64,000 bases of DNA from Fervidobacterium sp. (GTDB lineage: Bacteria > Thermotogota > Thermotogae > Thermotogales > Fervidobacteriaceae). The first letter of the stretch is position 1. Each line of letters opens with the position of its first letter. Of this stretch, positions 3,816 through 12,149 are shown in pieces. The notes under the pieces were generated by a model. The model was not told the origin of the DNA. It saw only the letters and a list, made by a program, of their open reading frames with translations, and ran no database searches. The position numbers were made by a program, and so were the translations under genes. Location of the stretch: positions 124,001 through 188,000 of the forward strand of contig JANZZV010000004.1 in the NCBI GenBank assembly GCA_026419195.1, in the 5' to 3' direction.

Positions 3816-5156
3816 TTATTTTAAAAGTCCTTTCTGTTTTAAAAATTCTGTAAGTACCTGTTCAAGCGTTGGTTCACCTATTTCTTGAAGTTCATATCTA
3901 ACTCTTACAGCAGGTTTGTTGATGTGCATAACCCTTCTCAAGTCAATAGGAGTGCCGATAATAACAACATCTGCATCTGATTTATTTATCGTTTCTTCTA
4001 ATTCCTTAATTTGTTTCTCACCATATCCCATTGCTGGAAGTATCACATCAAGATGGTTGTACTTATTGTAAGTATCAATAATTGAACCAACAGCATAAGG
4101 TCTTGGATCAATGATTTGTTTAGCACCGAATCTTTTTGCCGCAACGTAACCTGCACCGTACCTCATATCACCGTGCGTTAGGGTTGGACCATCTTCAACA
4201 ACGAGAACTTTCTTACCTCTAATTATCGCAGGATCGTCAACAAATATCGGAGATGCGGCATCAATAACAATAGCTTTTGGATTCCATCTTGCAATATTCT
4301 TTCTTACAGTTTCAATGTCTTCTCTATTTGCTGTCTCTTCTTTGTTAATAACAATCACATCGGCCATAAGTAAGTTTGCCATACCAGGGTAATATGTAAT
4401 TTCGTGACCTGGTCTATGTGGATCTACAACTACTATCTTAAGATCCGACTTGTAAAATGGAAAATCGTTATTTCCTCCATCCCACAAGATAACATCCGGA
4501 TTTTCAGCCTCAGCAGATCTTAAAATCGCTTCATAATCTACTCCAGCGTAAATCACACTTTTTCTATCGATGTGTGGTTCATATTCTTCACGTTCTTCGA
4601 TTGTGCAGTTATGCTTGTCAAGATCTGAGTAATCAGCAAATCTTTGAACTTTCTGTGCTACTAAATCACCATATGGCATTGGGTGTCTTACCGAAATTAC
4701 TTTCATCCCTTTACTTCTAAGGATGTCGAGAACTCTTCTGGTTGTTTGACTTTTTCCACAACCTGTCCTTACAGCGCAAACGGAAACAACTGGTTTTGTC
4801 GATTGAACAGTTGTGGCTTTCGGCCCCATAAGTTTGAAATCAGCCCCACATGCTAAAGCAATAGCGGCTCTTTCCATAACATACTGATGTGGCAAATCAC
4901 TGTAGGCAAGGATAACTTCATCAACATCGTACTTTTTAATAAGTTCTGGTAAGTTTGCTTCATCTTCTATAGGAATACCATTTGGATAGAGTGAACCAGC
5001 AAGTTCTGGAGGATAAACTCGTCCCGCTATATCCGGTATTTGCGTAGCTGTAAACGCTACAACTTCGTAATCTGGGTTGTTTCTGAAAAACGTGTTGAAA
5101 TTGTGAAAGTCTCTACCTGCAGCACCAAGAATGATAACTCTCCTTCTTTTCTCCAT
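3816..5156 (-). CDS. COG2403-type NTPase, cyclic 2,3-diphosphoglycerate synthetase-like
   Basis: A 446-residue cytoplasmic protein. Residues 1-120 form a Rossmann-like half starting RRRVIILGAAGRD. A P-loop (AVRTGCGKSQT, 128-138) opens the second half, which has DGGNND and VVVDPHRPGHE segments. This architecture fits COG2403, whose members are annotated as predicted GTPases or as cyclic 2,3-diphosphoglycerate synthetase, the enzyme that makes the methanogen thermoprotectant cDPG from 2,3-DPG. Whether this bacterial version makes cDPG is not known from sequence. ATG 5156 is chosen because GGAGGTGA precedes it by seven bases. It is a single-gene unit ending at the bidirectional terminator. Confidence 0.75.
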   Translation of the reverse strand: MEKRRRVIILGAAGRDFHNFNTFFRNNPDYEVVAFTATQIPDIAGRVYPPELAGSLYPNGIPIEDEANLPELIKKYDVDEVILAYSDLPHQYVMERAAIALACGADFKLMGPKATTVQSTKPVVSVCAVRTGCGKSQTTRRVLDILRSKGMKVISVRHPMPYGDLVAQKVQRFADYSDLDKHNCTIEEREEYEPHIDRKSVIYAGVDYEAILRSAEAENPDVILWDGGNNDFPFYKSDLKIVVVDPHRPGHEITYYPGMANLLMADVIVINKEETANREDIETVRKNIARWNPKAIVIDAASPIFVDDPAIIRGKKVLVVEDGPTLTHGDMRYGAGYVAAKRFGAKQIIDPRPYAVGSIIDTYNKYNHLDVILPAMGYGEKQIKELEETINKSDADVVIIGTPIDLRRVMHINKPAVRVRYELQEIGEPTLEQVLTEFLKQKGLLK

Positions 5157-5348
5157 TCTTTCACCTCCAAGTTCTTGTAATTTAAACTTCTTAATCTCAA
5201 ACAATAACACCTGAATTATACTTTTACTTTCAACTCTAAACTTTGACTTCTATTCCCGAAAAATTATATATTATGCCATTATTCATTTCAATATCAACAT
5301 CAACCTAAAATCAAAAACATAAACTACAACATTTCCAAATACCGCTCA

Positions 5349-5543: not shown

Positions 5544-6731
5544 ATGAGAAAAGTTTTGACAGTAGTTCTTGCTGTATTGTTTGTCTTCTTGGCATTTGCA
5601 CAAGCTAAGAAGATTACTATTTGGACCTCTGAAGCACAAGTTCCTATCCTTAAGAAACTTGCAGATCAGTACAAAGCAAAGTATGGTGTTCAAGTTGATG
5701 TTGTTCAAGTAAATTTCGGAGACATCAAATCCAAGTTTTTGACGGCAGCTCCAGCAGGTGAAGGTCCAGATATAATCGTTGGTGCTCATGACTGGGTTGG
5801 AGAACTCGTAGTAAACGGATTACTTGAGCCAATTAACCTTCCAGAAAGAGAAAAATACTTCCCAACACCACTTCAAGGTTTCACATACGGTGGAAAACTC
5901 TACGGTGTTCCATACGCATTTGATGGTCCAGCTATAATTTACAACAAGGATTATGTAAAAACACCACCAAAAACTTGGGACGAACTCATTGCCATGGCAA
6001 AGAAAATTGAAAAAGACTATGGCGGAGAAGTAAGAGGCTTTATTTACGATTACAAGAATTTCTACTTTAGTTCATTTGCATTCTTTGGTATGGGTGGATA
6101 TGTTTTCGGAACAGACAAATCTGGAAAATTAAACGTCAAAGACGTCGGACTTGCAAACGCAGGTGCTATTGAAGGTTTGAAGCTTATAAAGAGACTTGTT
6201 GACGAAAAAGTACTTACATCTGGCGACAACTACAACACAATGGACGGACTTTTCAAAGACGGTCTTGCAGCTATGATTCTTAATGGTCCTTGGGCAGTAC
6301 CTGGCTACAAACAAGCTGGTATAAACTTTGATGTTGCTCCAATTCCAACGCTTCCTGGCGGAAAGAATCCAAAACCATTCTTTGGAGCACAAGGTTTTAT
6401 GGTTAATGCTAAGAGCAAAAATAAACTTTTTGCACTTGACTTCTTGACAAAATTCATCGCAACAAAAGACGTCATGTTCCAAATTTGGCAAGCGGACCCA
6501 AGATGTCCATCAAGATCTGACGTTAATGAACTTGTTATGCAAAAGGATCCATTGACAAAGAAATTTGCAGATTTTCTTGGTACATATGGTTTACCAATGC
6601 CAAACGTTCCAGAAATGGCAGCAGTTTGGGGAGCTATGGGAGACGCACTTGCAAAAGCACTTGACCAAGGTGTCCCAGCAGAAAAAGCTCTTTCTGATGC
6701 TGTTGCACAAATTAAGGCGCAAATCAAGTAA
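5544..6731 (+). CDS. malE: maltose/maltodextrin ABC transporter substrate-binding protein
   Basis: A 395-residue secreted solute-binding protein. Residues 1-20 are a signal peptide (MRKVLTVVLAVLFVFLAFAQ); there is no lipobox cysteine. The mature part starts KKITIWTSE, the usual beginning of cluster-1 sugar-binding proteins, and carries GPDIIVGAHDW and PYAFDGPAIIYNKD, which match MalE of Thermotogales. A GGGGAGG ribosome site precedes ATG 5544. It is the first gene of malEFG and is followed by a strong terminator that probably allows partial read-through, so that MalE is made in excess of the permeases. Substrate is inferred as maltose/maltodextrin from family and operon. Confidence 0.93.
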   Translation: MRKVLTVVLAVLFVFLAFAQAKKITIWTSEAQVPILKKLADQYKAKYGVQVDVVQVNFGDIKSKFLTAAPAGEGPDIIVGAHDWVGELVVNGLLEPINLPEREKYFPTPLQGFTYGGKLYGVPYAFDGPAIIYNKDYVKTPPKTWDELIAMAKKIEKDYGGEVRGFIYDYKNFYFSSFAFFGMGGYVFGTDKSGKLNVKDVGLANAGAIEGLKLIKRLVDEKVLTSGDNYNTMDGLFKDGLAAMILNGPWAVPGYKQAGINFDVAPIPTLPGGKNPKPFFGAQGFMVNAKSKNKLFALDFLTKFIATKDVMFQIWQADPRCPSRSDVNELVMQKDPLTKKFADFLGTYGLPMPNVPEMAAVWGAMGDALAKALDQGVPAEKALSDAVAQIKAQIK

Positions 6732-6778: not shown

Positions 6779-6839
6779 AAGTGTACAATTATTATAAAAC
6801 CAATACTTGGGGTACAAGATTCATAAGGAGGAGGAATTG

Positions 6840-8546
6840 ATGAAATTTTTTAAAATAGTAGGTTGGATTACCTTAATTTTGTTTACAATTTTTGGAATAC
6901 TTGCTGGAATATTTTTATTCGGAAGAGGTTTTTATGAGTTATCAGTAACTCTTTTCGTATTAATATTCCTTATCGATTTTTTCATAATAAATCCAAATGG
7001 GTATCCTTATAGATACATGATACCTGCTCTCATATTGCTGTTCATACTTGTTCTTTATCCAATAACTTTTACAATAAGAACGGCATTTACGAATTACGGA
7101 ACCGGGCACATAATGACAAGACAAGAAGTTGTTGAGAAACTACTCGTTGACCCAATCTACACTTACACCGTTGATGATGGAACAAAGTTTAAATACAGTG
7201 TATACGTAAAATTTGAAGGCACGCAGCCAACAAAAGATTTCAAAATAATTGTTACAGACGGACAAAACATCTATGTTGCAAGAGATTATAAACCACTAAA
7301 AACAGAAGCAGGTGAATTGATACTTGGCGAGGCAGAGTTGGTTAAATTGACAGATAGTGGTCTAAAGTACGAAAGACAGCAAGGAAAGATAGAATTGATT
7401 AACGATAGCGGAAGAATATTTAAATACTTTTACTCTCCTGAAGACCCGACGACTTTTATAAATGAAGAATATTTTAAATATTCAATTTTATTTCCAATCT
7501 TAAGCAAAATTGAATTTGTTGACAATGCTGCGAATAGATATTCAATAAGACAAAACGAAATGGGAAAGCTCCTACTTTACGAAATAAAACACATGTATAA
7601 ACTTGGTTTGGCTGAAGTCATCGAGAAAGGTAAGAGTGTCGTTAAAACTGTGTTAATAAATACCTCTACAGGTAGACCTTTGATTGAGGAAAATGGTACT
7701 ATTTATGACATAAATGAAAAGGGTGAAAAAGTTGTAGTAGCTGGCTACATTTCAGGATACGGATTTAAGAACTTCACTCGTATCTTTACAGACCCAACAG
7801 TTTCTGGACCATTCGCAAGAATTTTTGTTTGGAATTTTACATGGGCAGCTCTCAGCGTTTTATTTACCTTTGTCATAGGGCTAATTTTGGCACTCGTTTT
7901 GAACAACCCAAACCTTAGAGGAAGAGCAATCTATCGCTCACTTTTGATCATTCCATGGGCAATACCTGCTTTCATTTCGGTGCTGGTGTGGAAAAATGGA
8001 TTCTTCAATGAAACATACGGAATCATAAACAAATTTATTGTCACGAAATTATTCAATGCTGAACCAATAAGATGGTTTAACGACCCGCTTTGGGCAAAAG
8101 TAGCAGTACTTACTGTAAACACTTGGCTTGGATTTCCATACATGATGGTTGTTACGCTTGGTGCGCTTCAAAGTATACCTGAAGATTACTACGAAGCGGC
8201 GGCGATAGATGGTGCTACCAAGTGGCAAAGATTCTGGAAAATCACATTTCCACTTTTAATGACGACAGTTGCCCCACTGCTTGTAGGAAGTTTTGCGTTT
8301 AATTTCAACAATTTTGTTAACATATATCTTCTTACCGGTGGTGGACCTGCAATGCCCAACACTACAACACCAGCTGGTTCTACCGACATACTCATCTCTT
8401 ACACATACAAGCTTGCATTTGAAGGTGGTCGAGGACAAGACTTTGGATTTGCTTCTGCAATTTCCATTCTTATATTCCTTATTGTCGGAAGCTTGAGTTT
8501 CATAAACTTCAAACTATCTGGTTCGTTTGAAGAGGTGAATAGATAA
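6840..8546 (+). CDS. malF: maltose ABC transporter permease MalF
   Basis: A 568-residue inner-membrane permease. Three hydrophobic segments in residues 1-80 precede a large extracytoplasmic domain (about 85-320, equivalent to the MalF P2 domain), then the permease core from about 325 onward. The cytoplasmic EAA loop is visible as EAAAIDGATKWQRFWK near 451. An AAGGAGGAGG ribosome site fixes ATG 6840 rather than the upstream in-frame ATG at 6807. The stop overlaps the malG start by one base. It pairs with MalG in the transporter; no ATPase gene is present in the window, so a shared MsmX-type ATPase elsewhere is likely. Confidence 0.93.
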   Translation: MKFFKIVGWITLILFTIFGILAGIFLFGRGFYELSVTLFVLIFLIDFFIINPNGYPYRYMIPALILLFILVLYPITFTIRTAFTNYGTGHIMTRQEVVEKLLVDPIYTYTVDDGTKFKYSVYVKFEGTQPTKDFKIIVTDGQNIYVARDYKPLKTEAGELILGEAELVKLTDSGLKYERQQGKIELINDSGRIFKYFYSPEDPTTFINEEYFKYSILFPILSKIEFVDNAANRYSIRQNEMGKLLLYEIKHMYKLGLAEVIEKGKSVVKTVLINTSTGRPLIEENGTIYDINEKGEKVVVAGYISGYGFKNFTRIFTDPTVSGPFARIFVWNFTWAALSVLFTFVIGLILALVLNNPNLRGRAIYRSLLIIPWAIPAFISVLVWKNGFFNETYGIINKFIVTKLFNAEPIRWFNDPLWAKVAVLTVNTWLGFPYMMVVTLGALQSIPEDYYEAAAIDGATKWQRFWKITFPLLMTTVAPLLVGSFAFNFNNFVNIYLLTGGGPAMPNTTTPAGSTDILISYTYKLAFEGGRGQDFGFASAISILIFLIVGSLSFINFKLSGSFEEVNR

Positions 8547-10960
8547 TGGTAAAGAAAGAAAGAAAATTGCTTACCCATATAGTACTCATAATCGTATGTA
8601 TAGTTGTACTTTTTCCAATAGTTTGGGTTGTTTCAACATCGCTCAGAAGGGATAACGCAGCGTTTTCAACAAAATTATTTAGTAGCAGAATGACTTTTCA
8701 AAACTACATAGACCTACTAGCACCTGAGAAGAATGGCCCAAGACTTGTTTCAGATATTGACGCACTTGTACTTATGGCACCACCTCATGATAGAAATACT
8801 GTAGAAAAGGCTAAGGAATACTTTAAAAAGGATATTGAACTTTTCAAAAAATATATTGCGGAAACTCAGCAACTCAAAAAAAAGATTGATGATAGCATAA
8901 ATTCTATTGAGAAATACTTTCAAGAAAACTCGGAACAACTCATAAATTCTTTTAATAGTGAAATAGACAAGATAATCAAAGAAATTAAATTTGAAAAACC
9001 GAGCAGGTACGTTGAAATAGCAGCATACGACTTAGTAAATCAAGGTAACGATCTAACGCCTATTAAAGATATTGATCCAAACAAAGGACAAGATGAATGG
9101 TATTCCATGATAGGAGAAAGAAAGGAAAAAACAGAAGCACTTAAGATGCAAAAGCAGGAGTTAGAAATATCCTTGCAACCACTTGAAAGATCCTACAGAA
9201 TATATCAATCACAATATTTATCGACTGTGAAGACTATAAATTCTTTCTTATTGCCTCAGCTTAAAGAATATGTACTCGCATTAGAATCAGCTGACAAACT
9301 TCTTGATGCTGCCAAGGATTCAAGAGTTTCCGTTGAGATAACTCCTGATGAATCAAGCTTAAAATTAAAATTTAAAGAAACGATAAGTGGTATCGACAAT
9401 TTGCAAATTAGCATGAATAAGTTTAAAGATCTGGAAGATATAAACAATTCACTTGTAGCATTCCAAACAATTTACAGAAAAATACTTTCGAAATGGGATA
9501 ATTTTAACTACAAAAATAAAGCACCATTTGTTGATTTTCTAAATACTATAGATGTATTTACCACAAGGATTGCAGGAACAGTAAACGAAACTGTTGCACT
9601 TGTTGAAAAGCTTAACAATATAACCAATAATTTAATACAACTACAAAGCCAAATTAATTCTAAAAGAAAATCCTTAACGAGCATAAATGAACAAATAAAA
9701 AACTTAGAAGAAGAAATACAGAAAGCTTACTCTGAAATTTACGATGCTACCGTATATGTAAAATCACGTTTAGTCACCGTACAACTTAAAGATGTACAAC
9801 AAAAAGTTTCAAGGATGAAATTACCAGCACAACTCCAGCTAATGAACTTACAAGCAAGAAAGGTATTTGGTATTGTTGGAGATCTTGCAAATACGTTACC
9901 CGAGGGTTCAAAAAAGCAGAAAACCTTGAGAAGCATCATATCAAAAATTGATTGGCCTGGCACAGCTAAGGACATGTTCACAAATTACGAACTATTTGTT
10001 CAAAACTACGAACCGTTTGTAAAAGATCTGCAACTTTACTTATCGGATGTAGAAATTCAAGGTCTTAAATTTATGCCTGTAGCAAAAACGGGTATAAAAG
10101 TAAGGCCACAATCTCTTGAAAAACTGATTGATACCGTACTGTCCGTTTACAGAACCAGCGTGGTACCGAATATGAATGTAATGTCAAGAAAAGCATCTGA
10201 ACTTTCCGACAAACTTAACTTAAGAGATATAGCAGGATATTTAAAAGCTATAGACGGTGCTTCTTACAGAATAGACCAAATATGGCAGAGGAAACCAGAT
10301 CATTATATGTTAAGATGGATACTTAACAGCGTCATCGTAGCACTTACTGTTTCGATTATAATAACTGCAGTTACAGCACTTGCAGCATATCCATTCAGTA
10401 GAATGAAATTCAAGGGAAGAAAGTATGGTATAATGTCTTTACTGCTTATCCAAATGTTCCCGGCTATAATGTATATGATAGCAGTCTACACGTTCTTATC
10501 ATTTGCAGGAAAGTATATACCTGGATTTGGATTAAACAAGGTTTCTGGATTGATATTTGCATACCTTGGTGGAATAGCTTACAACATGTACCTTATAAAA
10601 GGTTACTACGACACGATACCAGACTCTCTTGAAGAAGCCGCATTGATAGATGGAGCAACAAGATGGCAGACATTTGTAAAAATCGTTCTTCCGCTTGCTT
10701 CACCAATCCTTGCAGTTATAGTTATACTCACATTCATGGGAACATTCAATGAGTTTGTACTTGCAAGAATCATACTGCAAGATGTAAAACAATACACCTA
10801 CGCTATAGGATTATACACATTTTCAACAGGTCCATTTGAAACACAATGGGGACTATTTACTGCAGCTGCTTTGATCGGTATGATACCAATGGTTACTCTC
10901 TTTTTACTGATGCAAAAGTACATAGTTGGCGGCTTAGTAAAGGGTGCCGTGAAAGGATAA
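8546..10960 (+). CDS. malG: maltose ABC transporter permease MalG with ~530-residue extracytoplasmic insertion
   Basis: At 804 residues this is almost three times a typical MalG (about 280). TM1 (about 9-30) and the NYIDLL segment near 55 are canonical, and the canonical protein resumes at residue 588 (MLRWILNSVIVAL) with the remaining helices and the EAA loop EEAALIDGATRWQTFVK near 696. Between them, residues about 60-587 are highly charged and Lys/Glu/Gln/Leu-rich, with long predicted helices and coiled-coil character and no membrane segment. By MalG topology this falls in the first extracytoplasmic loop. The insertion is in frame, and the downstream frame is intact, so it is not an assembly break. 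Large MalG proteins are, as far as I recall, a Thermotogales trait; the role of the insert is unknown. Confidence 0.9.
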   Translation: MVKKERKLLTHIVLIIVCIVVLFPIVWVVSTSLRRDNAAFSTKLFSSRMTFQNYIDLLAPEKNGPRLVSDIDALVLMAPPHDRNTVEKAKEYFKKDIELFKKYIAETQQLKKKIDDSINSIEKYFQENSEQLINSFNSEIDKIIKEIKFEKPSRYVEIAAYDLVNQGNDLTPIKDIDPNKGQDEWYSMIGERKEKTEALKMQKQELEISLQPLERSYRIYQSQYLSTVKTINSFLLPQLKEYVLALESADKLLDAAKDSRVSVEITPDESSLKLKFKETISGIDNLQISMNKFKDLEDINNSLVAFQTIYRKILSKWDNFNYKNKAPFVDFLNTIDVFTTRIAGTVNETVALVEKLNNITNNLIQLQSQINSKRKSLTSINEQIKNLEEEIQKAYSEIYDATVYVKSRLVTVQLKDVQQKVSRMKLPAQLQLMNLQARKVFGIVGDLANTLPEGSKKQKTLRSIISKIDWPGTAKDMFTNYELFVQNYEPFVKDLQLYLSDVEIQGLKFMPVAKTGIKVRPQSLEKLIDTVLSVYRTSVVPNMNVMSRKASELSDKLNLRDIAGYLKAIDGASYRIDQIWQRKPDHYMLRWILNSVIVALTVSIIITAVTALAAYPFSRMKFKGRKYGIMSLLLIQMFPAIMYMIAVYTFLSFAGKYIPGFGLNKVSGLIFAYLGGIAYNMYLIKGYYDTIPDSLEEAALIDGATRWQTFVKIVLPLASPILAVIVILTFMGTFNEFVLARIILQDVKQYTYAIGLYTFSTGPFETQWGLFTAAALIGMIPMVTLFLLMQKYIVGGLVKGAVKG

Positions 10961-10988: not shown

Positions 10989-12149
10989 ATGGAACTTTTG
11001 CCTGACTATGAAAGAAGTATTGTAAATCTTATCTCGACATTTCTAAAAAGGTTCGGTTGTCAAGTTTATCATTCCGAATTTCCCCTCGAAGAACACTTCG
11101 AGGGTTTTTTCCAAAATATAAATAAAATAGTTATCTTCTTAATAGATGGCATGGGGTACAAGAAATTCATGCAAATTAATAACAAAGTGGGATTTAATAG
11201 TGTAATTAAAGTCTCAAGTGTTTTTCCGACAACAACAGTAGCGGCTATTACAAGCTGGTTCACTGCAAAAACACCGAAAGAACATGGATTACTTGGTTAT
11301 ATATTGTACCTTCGTGAAATTGGTTCAATTACAAACATGATAGAACACACTTACCCAGGTTTAGAAGGCGGTATTTTTTCGGGAATAATCAAAAAGAGGT
11401 TACATAGATTAGAAAATACTTTTGATCTGCTCAAGGAGAAAGAGCTTTACGGTGGTGTTCTAACACATTCAACTATAGCAAATTCTGGATTGTCTTATCT
11501 AATTCACAGAAATTGCCATTTAATGAGCTATCTTTACATGGGTGATTTATTATCAACGCTAAAAAAGAGACTATCAGAGAATTGGAGGGGAATACTTTAC
11601 GTTTATTGGGGTTACCTTGATGGACTTGGACACAAAAAGGGACCAGATTCAGATGCTTACGAAATAGAATTAGAAAGACTGCTTATAGAACTTAAAAGAT
11701 TTACACAATTCAACCTTCCAAAAGATGCACTATTTGTTATAACATCAGATCACGGAATGATCCAAATTCCAGGATCGAATAATTACTTTCTAAAACCAAC
11801 TGATAATTTTAATAGATTACTATCCTCACCACCTGGTGGTGAAATGAGAATGATGTACTTTTACCTTTCAAAAAAGGCCAATATCGAACCACTTAAATCG
11901 TACTTTGAAGAAAATTTTCCGTCTACAGTTTATTTCATGAATTCCAAAGATGCGGTTGAACAAGGACTATTCGGCTCTGGACGTTCACATCCAGAATTGT
12001 ATAATCGTATTGGGGATGTTATAATGTTAGCAAGAGAAAATTATGCATTTACATACCTTTACAGCGGCGGTGAGGAAAGACTCGTTGGAATGCATGGTAG
12101 TTTAACTGATGATGAATTGTACGTACCTGCTGTATTCATCAAAAACTAA
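10989..12149 (+). CDS. alkaline-phosphatase-fold phosphodiesterase/nucleotide pyrophosphatase
   Basis: A 386-residue protein of the type I phosphodiesterase family (PF01663). Metal-site and nucleophile motifs are visible: FLIDGMG (D53), PTTTVAAITSW with the probable Thr nucleophile near 82, GYLDGLGHKKGPDSD and the late SDHGM near 253. No signal peptide is present, so it is probably cytoplasmic. AAAGGTGAT precedes the ATG. It follows malG after 28 bp and precedes gltX; it may be read from the mal transcript. The substrate (nucleotide, phosphonate or phospholipid derivative) cannot be told from sequence. Confidence 0.82.
   Translation: MELLPDYERSIVNLISTFLKRFGCQVYHSEFPLEEHFEGFFQNINKIVIFLIDGMGYKKFMQINNKVGFNSVIKVSSVFPTTTVAAITSWFTAKTPKEHGLLGYILYLREIGSITNMIEHTYPGLEGGIFSGIIKKRLHRLENTFDLLKEKELYGGVLTHSTIANSGLSYLIHRNCHLMSYLYMGDLLSTLKKRLSENWRGILYVYWGYLDGLGHKKGPDSDAYEIELERLLIELKRFTQFNLPKDALFVITSDHGMIQIPGSNNYFLKPTDNFNRLLSSPPGGEMRMMYFYLSKKANIEPLKSYFEENFPSTVYFMNSKDAVEQGLFGSGRSHPELYNRIGDVIMLARENYAFTYLYSGGEERLVGMHGSLTDDELYVPAVFIKN

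Follow-up and report, generated by a model that had tools for sequence, protein, structure and literature searches.

A large predicted helical domain in the first periplasmic loop of Thermotogota MalG and its possible role as a second arm beside MalF P2

Among type I ABC importers, the maltose system serves as the model, and in E. coli its binding protein, MalE, contacts both permeases as well as the P2 loop of MalF. What role, then, could be played by more than 500 additional residues that separate the first two transmembrane (TM) helices of the permease MalG? This question is raised by a malE-malF-malG operon of Fervidobacterium sp., located in a 64,000-nucleotide stretch of DNA that is referred to as the window. 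The three genes lie tightly packed on the forward strand. malE (5544..6731, 395 aa) encodes a maltose/maltodextrin-binding protein whose closest solved structures are those of T. maritima MalE2/MalE1 (6dts, 2fnc); it possesses a signal peptide and, as judged by eye, no lipobox cysteine, and looks like a soluble periplasmic protein. It is followed by malF (6807..8546, 579 aa), whose product has eight TM stretches and scores above the NCBIfam cut-off for MalF, and by malG (8546..10960, 804 aa), which overlaps malF by one base. Directly after malG lies a gene of the type I phosphodiesterase/nucleotide pyrophosphatase family (PF01663; window positions 10989-12149); of the 26 genomes in which this gene was matched, 11 share the arrangement as judged by position, the distant families f5 and f11 among them. 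Upstream of the operon, the reverse strand encodes a 464-aa protein (3816-5210) in which a P-loop-like GTGCGKSQ stretch was recognized by eye; a Pfam search at E 0.001 gave no match.

The malG frame (8546-10960, forward strand) is free of internal stops, and its product could be aligned to E. coli MalG (2r6g_G) only over residues 3-42 and 584-804 (phmmer, E 4.9e-59), the loop between TM1 and TM2 comprising about 540 residues here, compared to about 30 in the E. coli protein. Residues 582-804 match the NCBIfam MalG model (NF008231) and residues 614-794 match Pfam BPD_transp_1 (E 4.5e-17). MalG is by far the best family for this protein, and the score of 250.9 bits does not reach its curated NCBIfam cut-off of 261, and the interruption of the loop by the insert lowers the score; we therefore use the name for the Thermotogota MalG clade, as delimited by core similarity and operon context, and not for the NCBIfam equivalog. 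By hydropathy, six TM stretches are seen at residues 2-36, 586-618, 627-655, 666-684, 707-744 and 767-798, with TM1 (residues 2-36, 8549..8653) preceding the insert and the core (residues 588-804, 10307..10957), including an EAA loop at residue 694, following it. The insert itself is intact and in frame at 8726-10306, corresponding to residues 61-587. An initial annotation of this DNA had described an 804-residue MalG in which both TM1 and the core, beginning at residue 588, are normal, which is borne out by the reading frame, the phmmer alignment and the family matches; the insert of about 528 residues that it placed at 8725-10306 is equally real, but has 527 residues and starts at 8726, position 8725 being one base out of frame.

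Searches with the insert yielded no Pfam or NCBIfam model above its curated cut-off, the only matches being weak ones to coiled coils, and just two PDB sequences at E 0.16-0.17. A TM-like stretch was absent from the insert in 65 of 65 aligned MalGs (Kyte-Doolittle, 19 residues, threshold 1.6). Positive charge is found at the N-terminus of MalG and in the TM2-TM3 loop (+5); on the basis of the positive-inside rule and homology, the insert can thus be assigned to the outside of the membrane, as a predicted periplasmic domain on the outer face between TM1 and TM2. This agrees with the initial annotation, which had located it where MalE docks, with topology supporting the position and homology the docking site; a cytoplasmic location finds no support in topology or in the positive-inside rule. 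The GC content of the insert stretch (0.32-0.36) is slightly lower than that of its surroundings (0.34-0.40), and we do not build a case for a foreign gene on that. An origin of the insert from repeats was considered and rejected, as it contains a single short tandem repeat (a 21-base unit in 2.1 copies, 9975-10020).

As an observation, the insert is not new. A hydrophilic region of about 500 aa in Thermotogales MalG1/MalG2 was described by Noll et al. in 2008 (PMC2246101), and the T. maritima proteins belong to the same family and carry a region of the same size, about 500 residues, at the same TM1-TM2 site, such that nothing fundamental distinguishes them from the protein described here. The passages of that paper devoted to the region assign it no function, in agreement with the initial annotation, which knew of none, and they do not deal with its fold, its occurrence outside Thermotogales or a link to the loop length of MalF. 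Our literature search, which covered open-licence PMC papers, found no later description. The insert is real, conserved and previously reported; new are its fixation throughout the phylum, a confident predicted fold, the link to the length of MalF P2, copies outside the phylum and a lineage poor in hairpin.

For the full MalG, AlphaFold2 with 22 sequences returned pLDDT values mostly of 80-95 over residues 61-580, together with a poor core (mean 73.1); for the insert alone, it returned an all-helical model with a mean pLDDT of 93.0 and a pTM of 0.69. In this prediction, a membrane-proximal base of shorter helices is assembled from both ends of the insert (residues 61-146, 8726..8983, and residues 423-587, 9812..10306) and carries a lobe of variable length (residues 147-177, 8984..9076; 29 to 164 residues in relatives) and a hairpin. 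The latter would consist of two very long helices, residues 178-256 (9077..9313) and 326-422 (9521..9811), predicted as an antiparallel coiled-coil pair, with a distal part (residues 257-325, 9314..9520) between the two arms. The longest helix has 97 residues, or about 14.5 nm. Averaged over the alignment, the two long helices have hydrophobicity periods of 3.57 and 3.45, in either case above every one of 1000 shuffles; taken by itself, the window sequence has a significant period in the second helix (5/1000 shuffles as high) and not in the first (380/1000). The description of the whole segment as coiled-coil-like in the initial annotation fits residues 178-422, but not the remainder, which is predicted as the base of shorter helices.

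None of the 154 Foldseek matches to the insert alone reached E 0.001, and a viral structure library gave no match at E 0.001 or better; the best Z in VIA, 10.2, lies under the level that the tool deems meaningful for long helices. The Foldseek and VIA rows, among them the dynein stalk, SMC, chemoreceptor, MmpL5 and other long coiled coils, were considered as candidates for fold homology and taken as generic. The alignment of the hairpin helices to the dynein stalk (3wuq; Z 9.8, rmsd 2.5 over 143 residues), for example, is at a generic level for long helices according to the tool. The periplasmic coiled coil of MmpL5 (9mvz) is likewise a long helical hairpin in the periplasmic part of a transporter; however, MmpL5 is an RND transporter of unrelated sequence, and the fit is at the generic coiled-coil level.

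How widespread is this architecture? The insert was detected in 49 of the 61 genomes searched, including that of the window. A survey of MalG length and insert conservation, which the initial annotation had proposed as a check, was run on 103 Thermotogota genomes, in which a search with the MalG core (E 1e-45) gave 112 matches in 99 genomes. By our own count from the match list, 101 of the 112 are close cores (core identity of 56% or more), of which 98 are found in open frames of 786-963 aa. The other three have frames of 230 aa at a contig start (G071), of 613 aa in a genome in which the neighbouring malF is likewise broken into two frames (G089) and of 683 aa (G048). All 11 distant cores, with at most 54% identity, lie in frames of 280-311 aa. 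Counted by genome, close orthologues of the long type are present in 96 of the 103, short ones alone in three (G054, G059, G068) and neither in four. In a tree computed from the N-terminus and core without the insert, the 57 long rows fall on one side of a branch with an SH-aLRT support of 88; three short Thermotogota rows adjoin the long clade on a quick tree for which the program warned of long branches. The simplest reading of these data would be a single gain of the insert early in the phylum.

A first scan of genome contigs with a single insert as query returned no loci; a second one, in which GTDB species genomes were searched with an alignment of 20 sequences covering the first 600 residues, returned 23. 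Copies beyond Thermotogota were found in a Candidatus Atribacteria MAG (L078) and a Dictyoglomaceae MAG (L088), which pair with a support of 100 inside a group of Thermotogales rows (support 87). They are placed as after transfer. L088 is a 4.3-kb contig and L078 lies on one of 53 kb, and they may have been binned wrongly. Thermosipho has a second long malG (L087 in the Thermosipho MAG GB_MAG9_058, L154 in G014), which groups with the Thermotogaceae copies on the tree, as if gained by transfer. In three genera (g8, g12 and g14; L079, L080, L082, L083 and L156-L158), the insert-bearing malG is unlinked from malE and malF, with malF located elsewhere in these genomes and, at L083, malG sitting after a BmpA-type ABC operon. 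We regard this unlinking as neutral for the role proposed below.

MalG is accompanied in these genomes by a second long permease of its type. Outside the window, the locus L094:5871-8036 (G000:C1:322370-324535) encodes a MalG-type permease of 721 aa with an insert of about 450 residues, again in the TM1-TM2 loop, and by our own count the long form occurs in 58 of 61 genomes. A common origin of the two inserts was considered and rejected: they enter at different points, before an NYxxAW motif in the second permease and after NYxDLL in MalG, and hhalign gave probabilities of 4.7-11.6%, for which reasons the second insert was probably gained independently. The adjoining partner permease (L094:4529-5857, 442 aa, BPD_transp_1) contains additional hydrophobic segments located between the first TM and the core, as judged by eye, and inspection of L094 by eye revealed no binding-protein gene beside the second permease.

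Within the MalG insert, conservation is concentrated in the base. Among eight Fervidobacterium and sister-genus sequences, mean pairwise identity amounts to 0.85 for residues 61-85 and 0.77 for residues 515-587, compared to 0.39 for the distal part, the least conserved, and 0.93 for the core; W580 is identical in every row with a letter at this position. Across 27 genomes, the median identity is 13-14% in the hairpin and 26% in the base. Spacing in the base is nearly constant, with 46 residues from W470 to G516 in 53 of 53 rows having both residues and 17 from N63 to P80 in 48 of 48, whereas the lobe region from Y103 to L246 varies between 140 and 280 residues. The segment table had first suggested a strict molecular ruler, an idea that we dropped because the hairpin region from L246 to W470 spans 193-242 residues, leaving the base alone constant. 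Between the window and G005, dN/dS was estimated at about 0.12 across the insert and at 0.25 within the hairpin, at dS values of 1.6-2.4, that is, near saturation, most other pairs giving no estimate; these values suggest that the insert as a whole and the hairpin are under purifying selection. Since the architecture recurs across the phylum and dN/dS, against this one congener and with dS near saturation, is low, the insert is not a product of chance. At one locus (L162:761-2674, G048:C52), the N-terminus, base and core are kept, and the hairpin region has about 95 residues compared to about 245 in the others, suggesting that this lineage lost most of the hairpin and retained the base. The same genome also encodes a canonical MalG (L163). 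The initial annotation had named poor conservation and dispensability as arguments against a function. The sequence does evolve fast and one lineage has lost most of the hairpin; the presence of the insert, however, is fixed.

The position of the insert can be related to that of a known periplasmic domain. As the EAA loop comes after six TM stretches in MalF and after four in MalG, the TM1-TM2 loop of MalG corresponds to the TM3-TM4 loop of MalF, the site of P2. The P2 domain of E. coli MalF (2r6g_F) is likewise large and periplasmic and occupies the pseudo-symmetric loop, but it sits in the partner permease, MalF, has about 180 residues and contains beta sheet, whereas the insert sits in MalG and is predicted to be all-helical. 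The parts of PMC3150292 concerned with P2 delimit it as residues 91-271 and hint at the beta sheet. In the MalF of the window, the P2-equivalent region (residues 101-309, 7107..7733) is longer than in systems with a short MalG. It measures 208-234 residues in 48 of 48 long-MalG operons in which MalF is uncut by a contig end. Canonical MalG proteins, from E. coli (2r6g_G) and from the short Thermotogota systems, have the same TM core, EAA loop and C-terminus, but no insert and only 285-303 aa, and the P2 region of their partner MalF measures 152-154 residues in the three Thermotogota cases (3/3). The difference of 55-80 residues is clear, in a comparison that is small on the side of the short operons (three), and shared ancestry of the long operons accounts for part of it.

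With the MalG core held constant, pairwise insert and MalF P2 distances over 27 genomes gave partial correlations of 0.53/0.51/0.49 for base, middle and hairpin, compared to 0.34/0.16/0.22 for GltX as a control; MalE gave 0.43/0.24/0.14 and the MalF core negative values. Over 21 genomes, the phosphodiesterase, a faster control, gave 0.39/0.47/0.35, P2 0.56/0.58/0.47 and MalE 0.46/0.34/0.32. The link between insert and P2 lies modestly above the controls and is suggestive only. Covariation with MalE had looked strong as support for docking in a permutation test; however, unrelated control proteins then scored similarly, and we therefore give it no weight.

We propose that the insert forms a folded domain in the periplasm, accommodated by the first periplasmic loop of MalG. 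Its conserved helical base would rest on the MalF-MalG pair at the outer face, and the antiparallel coiled-coil hairpin, roughly 10-14 nm in length, would project from it. Under the pseudo-twofold symmetry of the two permeases, the loop is the counterpart of the MalF P2 loop, and insert and enlarged P2 together would form a two-sided cradle in which soluble MalE is kept near and well placed over the translocation path. We assign a probability of roughly 40% to this reading of the insert as a second arm that, with MalF P2, holds or orients MalE; from it we infer contacts with P2 and MalE, the direction of the hairpin and an effect on transport. MalE would be contacted by the base or a flank of the hairpin, its end being disfavoured as a binding site because the distal part is poorly conserved. 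Position opposite P2, P2 length, the P2 distance link, the conserved base, the confident fold, the outside topology and retention in 98 of 101 close orthologues all speak for such a cradle; against it, the distal part evolves fastest, MalE distances track the insert no better than controls do, and other permeases of the genome do without such a domain. A docking arm, one of the functions considered in the initial annotation, is thus a plausible and the leading reading.

The same annotation had also considered a spacer through the toga, which is unlikely. According to the relevant part of PMC3387000, OmpA1 keeps the toga about 50 nm from the membrane, a gap that the insert cannot bridge with a 97-residue helix of about 14.5 nm. 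Omp alpha/OmpA1 of T. maritima is, as described there, likewise a periplasmic coiled coil from the same phylum, but a separate protein with an SLH domain and a 316-residue rod spanning the 50 nm; the insert has neither, and a Pfam search found no SLH match in MalG. Moreover, the ten other MalG-type permeases of the genome are ordinary, with frames of 275-342 aa, so the envelope as such demands no arm, and copies occur in Dictyoglomota and Atribacterota MAGs. These points, the last of them unless the MAGs are misbinned, also weigh on a more modest version, in which the hairpin anchors the transporter where sugar arrives by binding the wall, the amorphous layer, a toga protein or an anchored amylase, without extending as far as the toga. 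A rod-like hairpin with a fast-evolving end, as expected for a changing partner, and the near universality of the insert in a phylum with an unusual envelope would suit an anchor; Pfam and NCBIfam searches matched no wall-binding family in the insert. We judge such an anchor unlikely, yet retain it because the hairpin could reach the wall or the amorphous layer, if not the toga.

The low identity of hairpin and base and the loss of most of the hairpin, with retention of the base, at L162 would also be expected of an old, well-folding insertion that does little and persists as a passenger or stabilizer since its base joined the permease fold. We consider this quite unlikely in view of the near-complete retention among close orthologues, the signature of purifying selection, the invariant spacing of the base and the longer MalF P2 in the same operons. 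Hairpins of adjacent transporters might instead pair and gather importers in patches, a notion encouraged by MmpL5, the mycobacterial RND transporter whose long periplasmic coiled coil forms a tube in the trimer (as stated in the part of PMC12501195 on this structure) and to which the hairpin aligns at Z 7.9 over 160 residues with an rmsd of 7.7; with the predicted arms pairing within one chain, such clustering appears very doubtful. Highly improbable, finally, is a sensor that reads the load or position of MalE and signals to the ATPase. The initial annotation had likewise raised the sensing of binding-protein load, and nothing specific came to light in favour of this idea or against it. MalF P2, the topological counterpart of the insert, communicates substrate availability to MalK according to the title of a reference in PMC8134467; Pfam and NCBIfam searches matched no ligand-binding or signalling family in the insert.

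If the cradle reading is adopted, the maltose system of Thermotogota might represent a two-armed type I ABC importer, in which MalG has a structurally unrelated arm opposite MalF P2. Both arms would have grown jointly and would keep MalE captive at the transporter, so that substrate capture in an unusually wide periplasm is achieved without a lipid anchor; the same loop would have been colonized a second time, by a different domain, in another permease. We offer this wider picture tentatively, as possible at best. Repeated colonization of the TM1-TM2 loop is itself a question raised by the second permease, with its seemingly unrelated insert. Now that the fold of the insert is predicted with confidence, its boundaries are defined and a natural homologue without most of the hairpin is at hand, the insert is directly testable, and a domain larger than the permease itself, fixed in a phylum together with a larger MalF P2, provides a natural variant for studying how binding proteins are retained.
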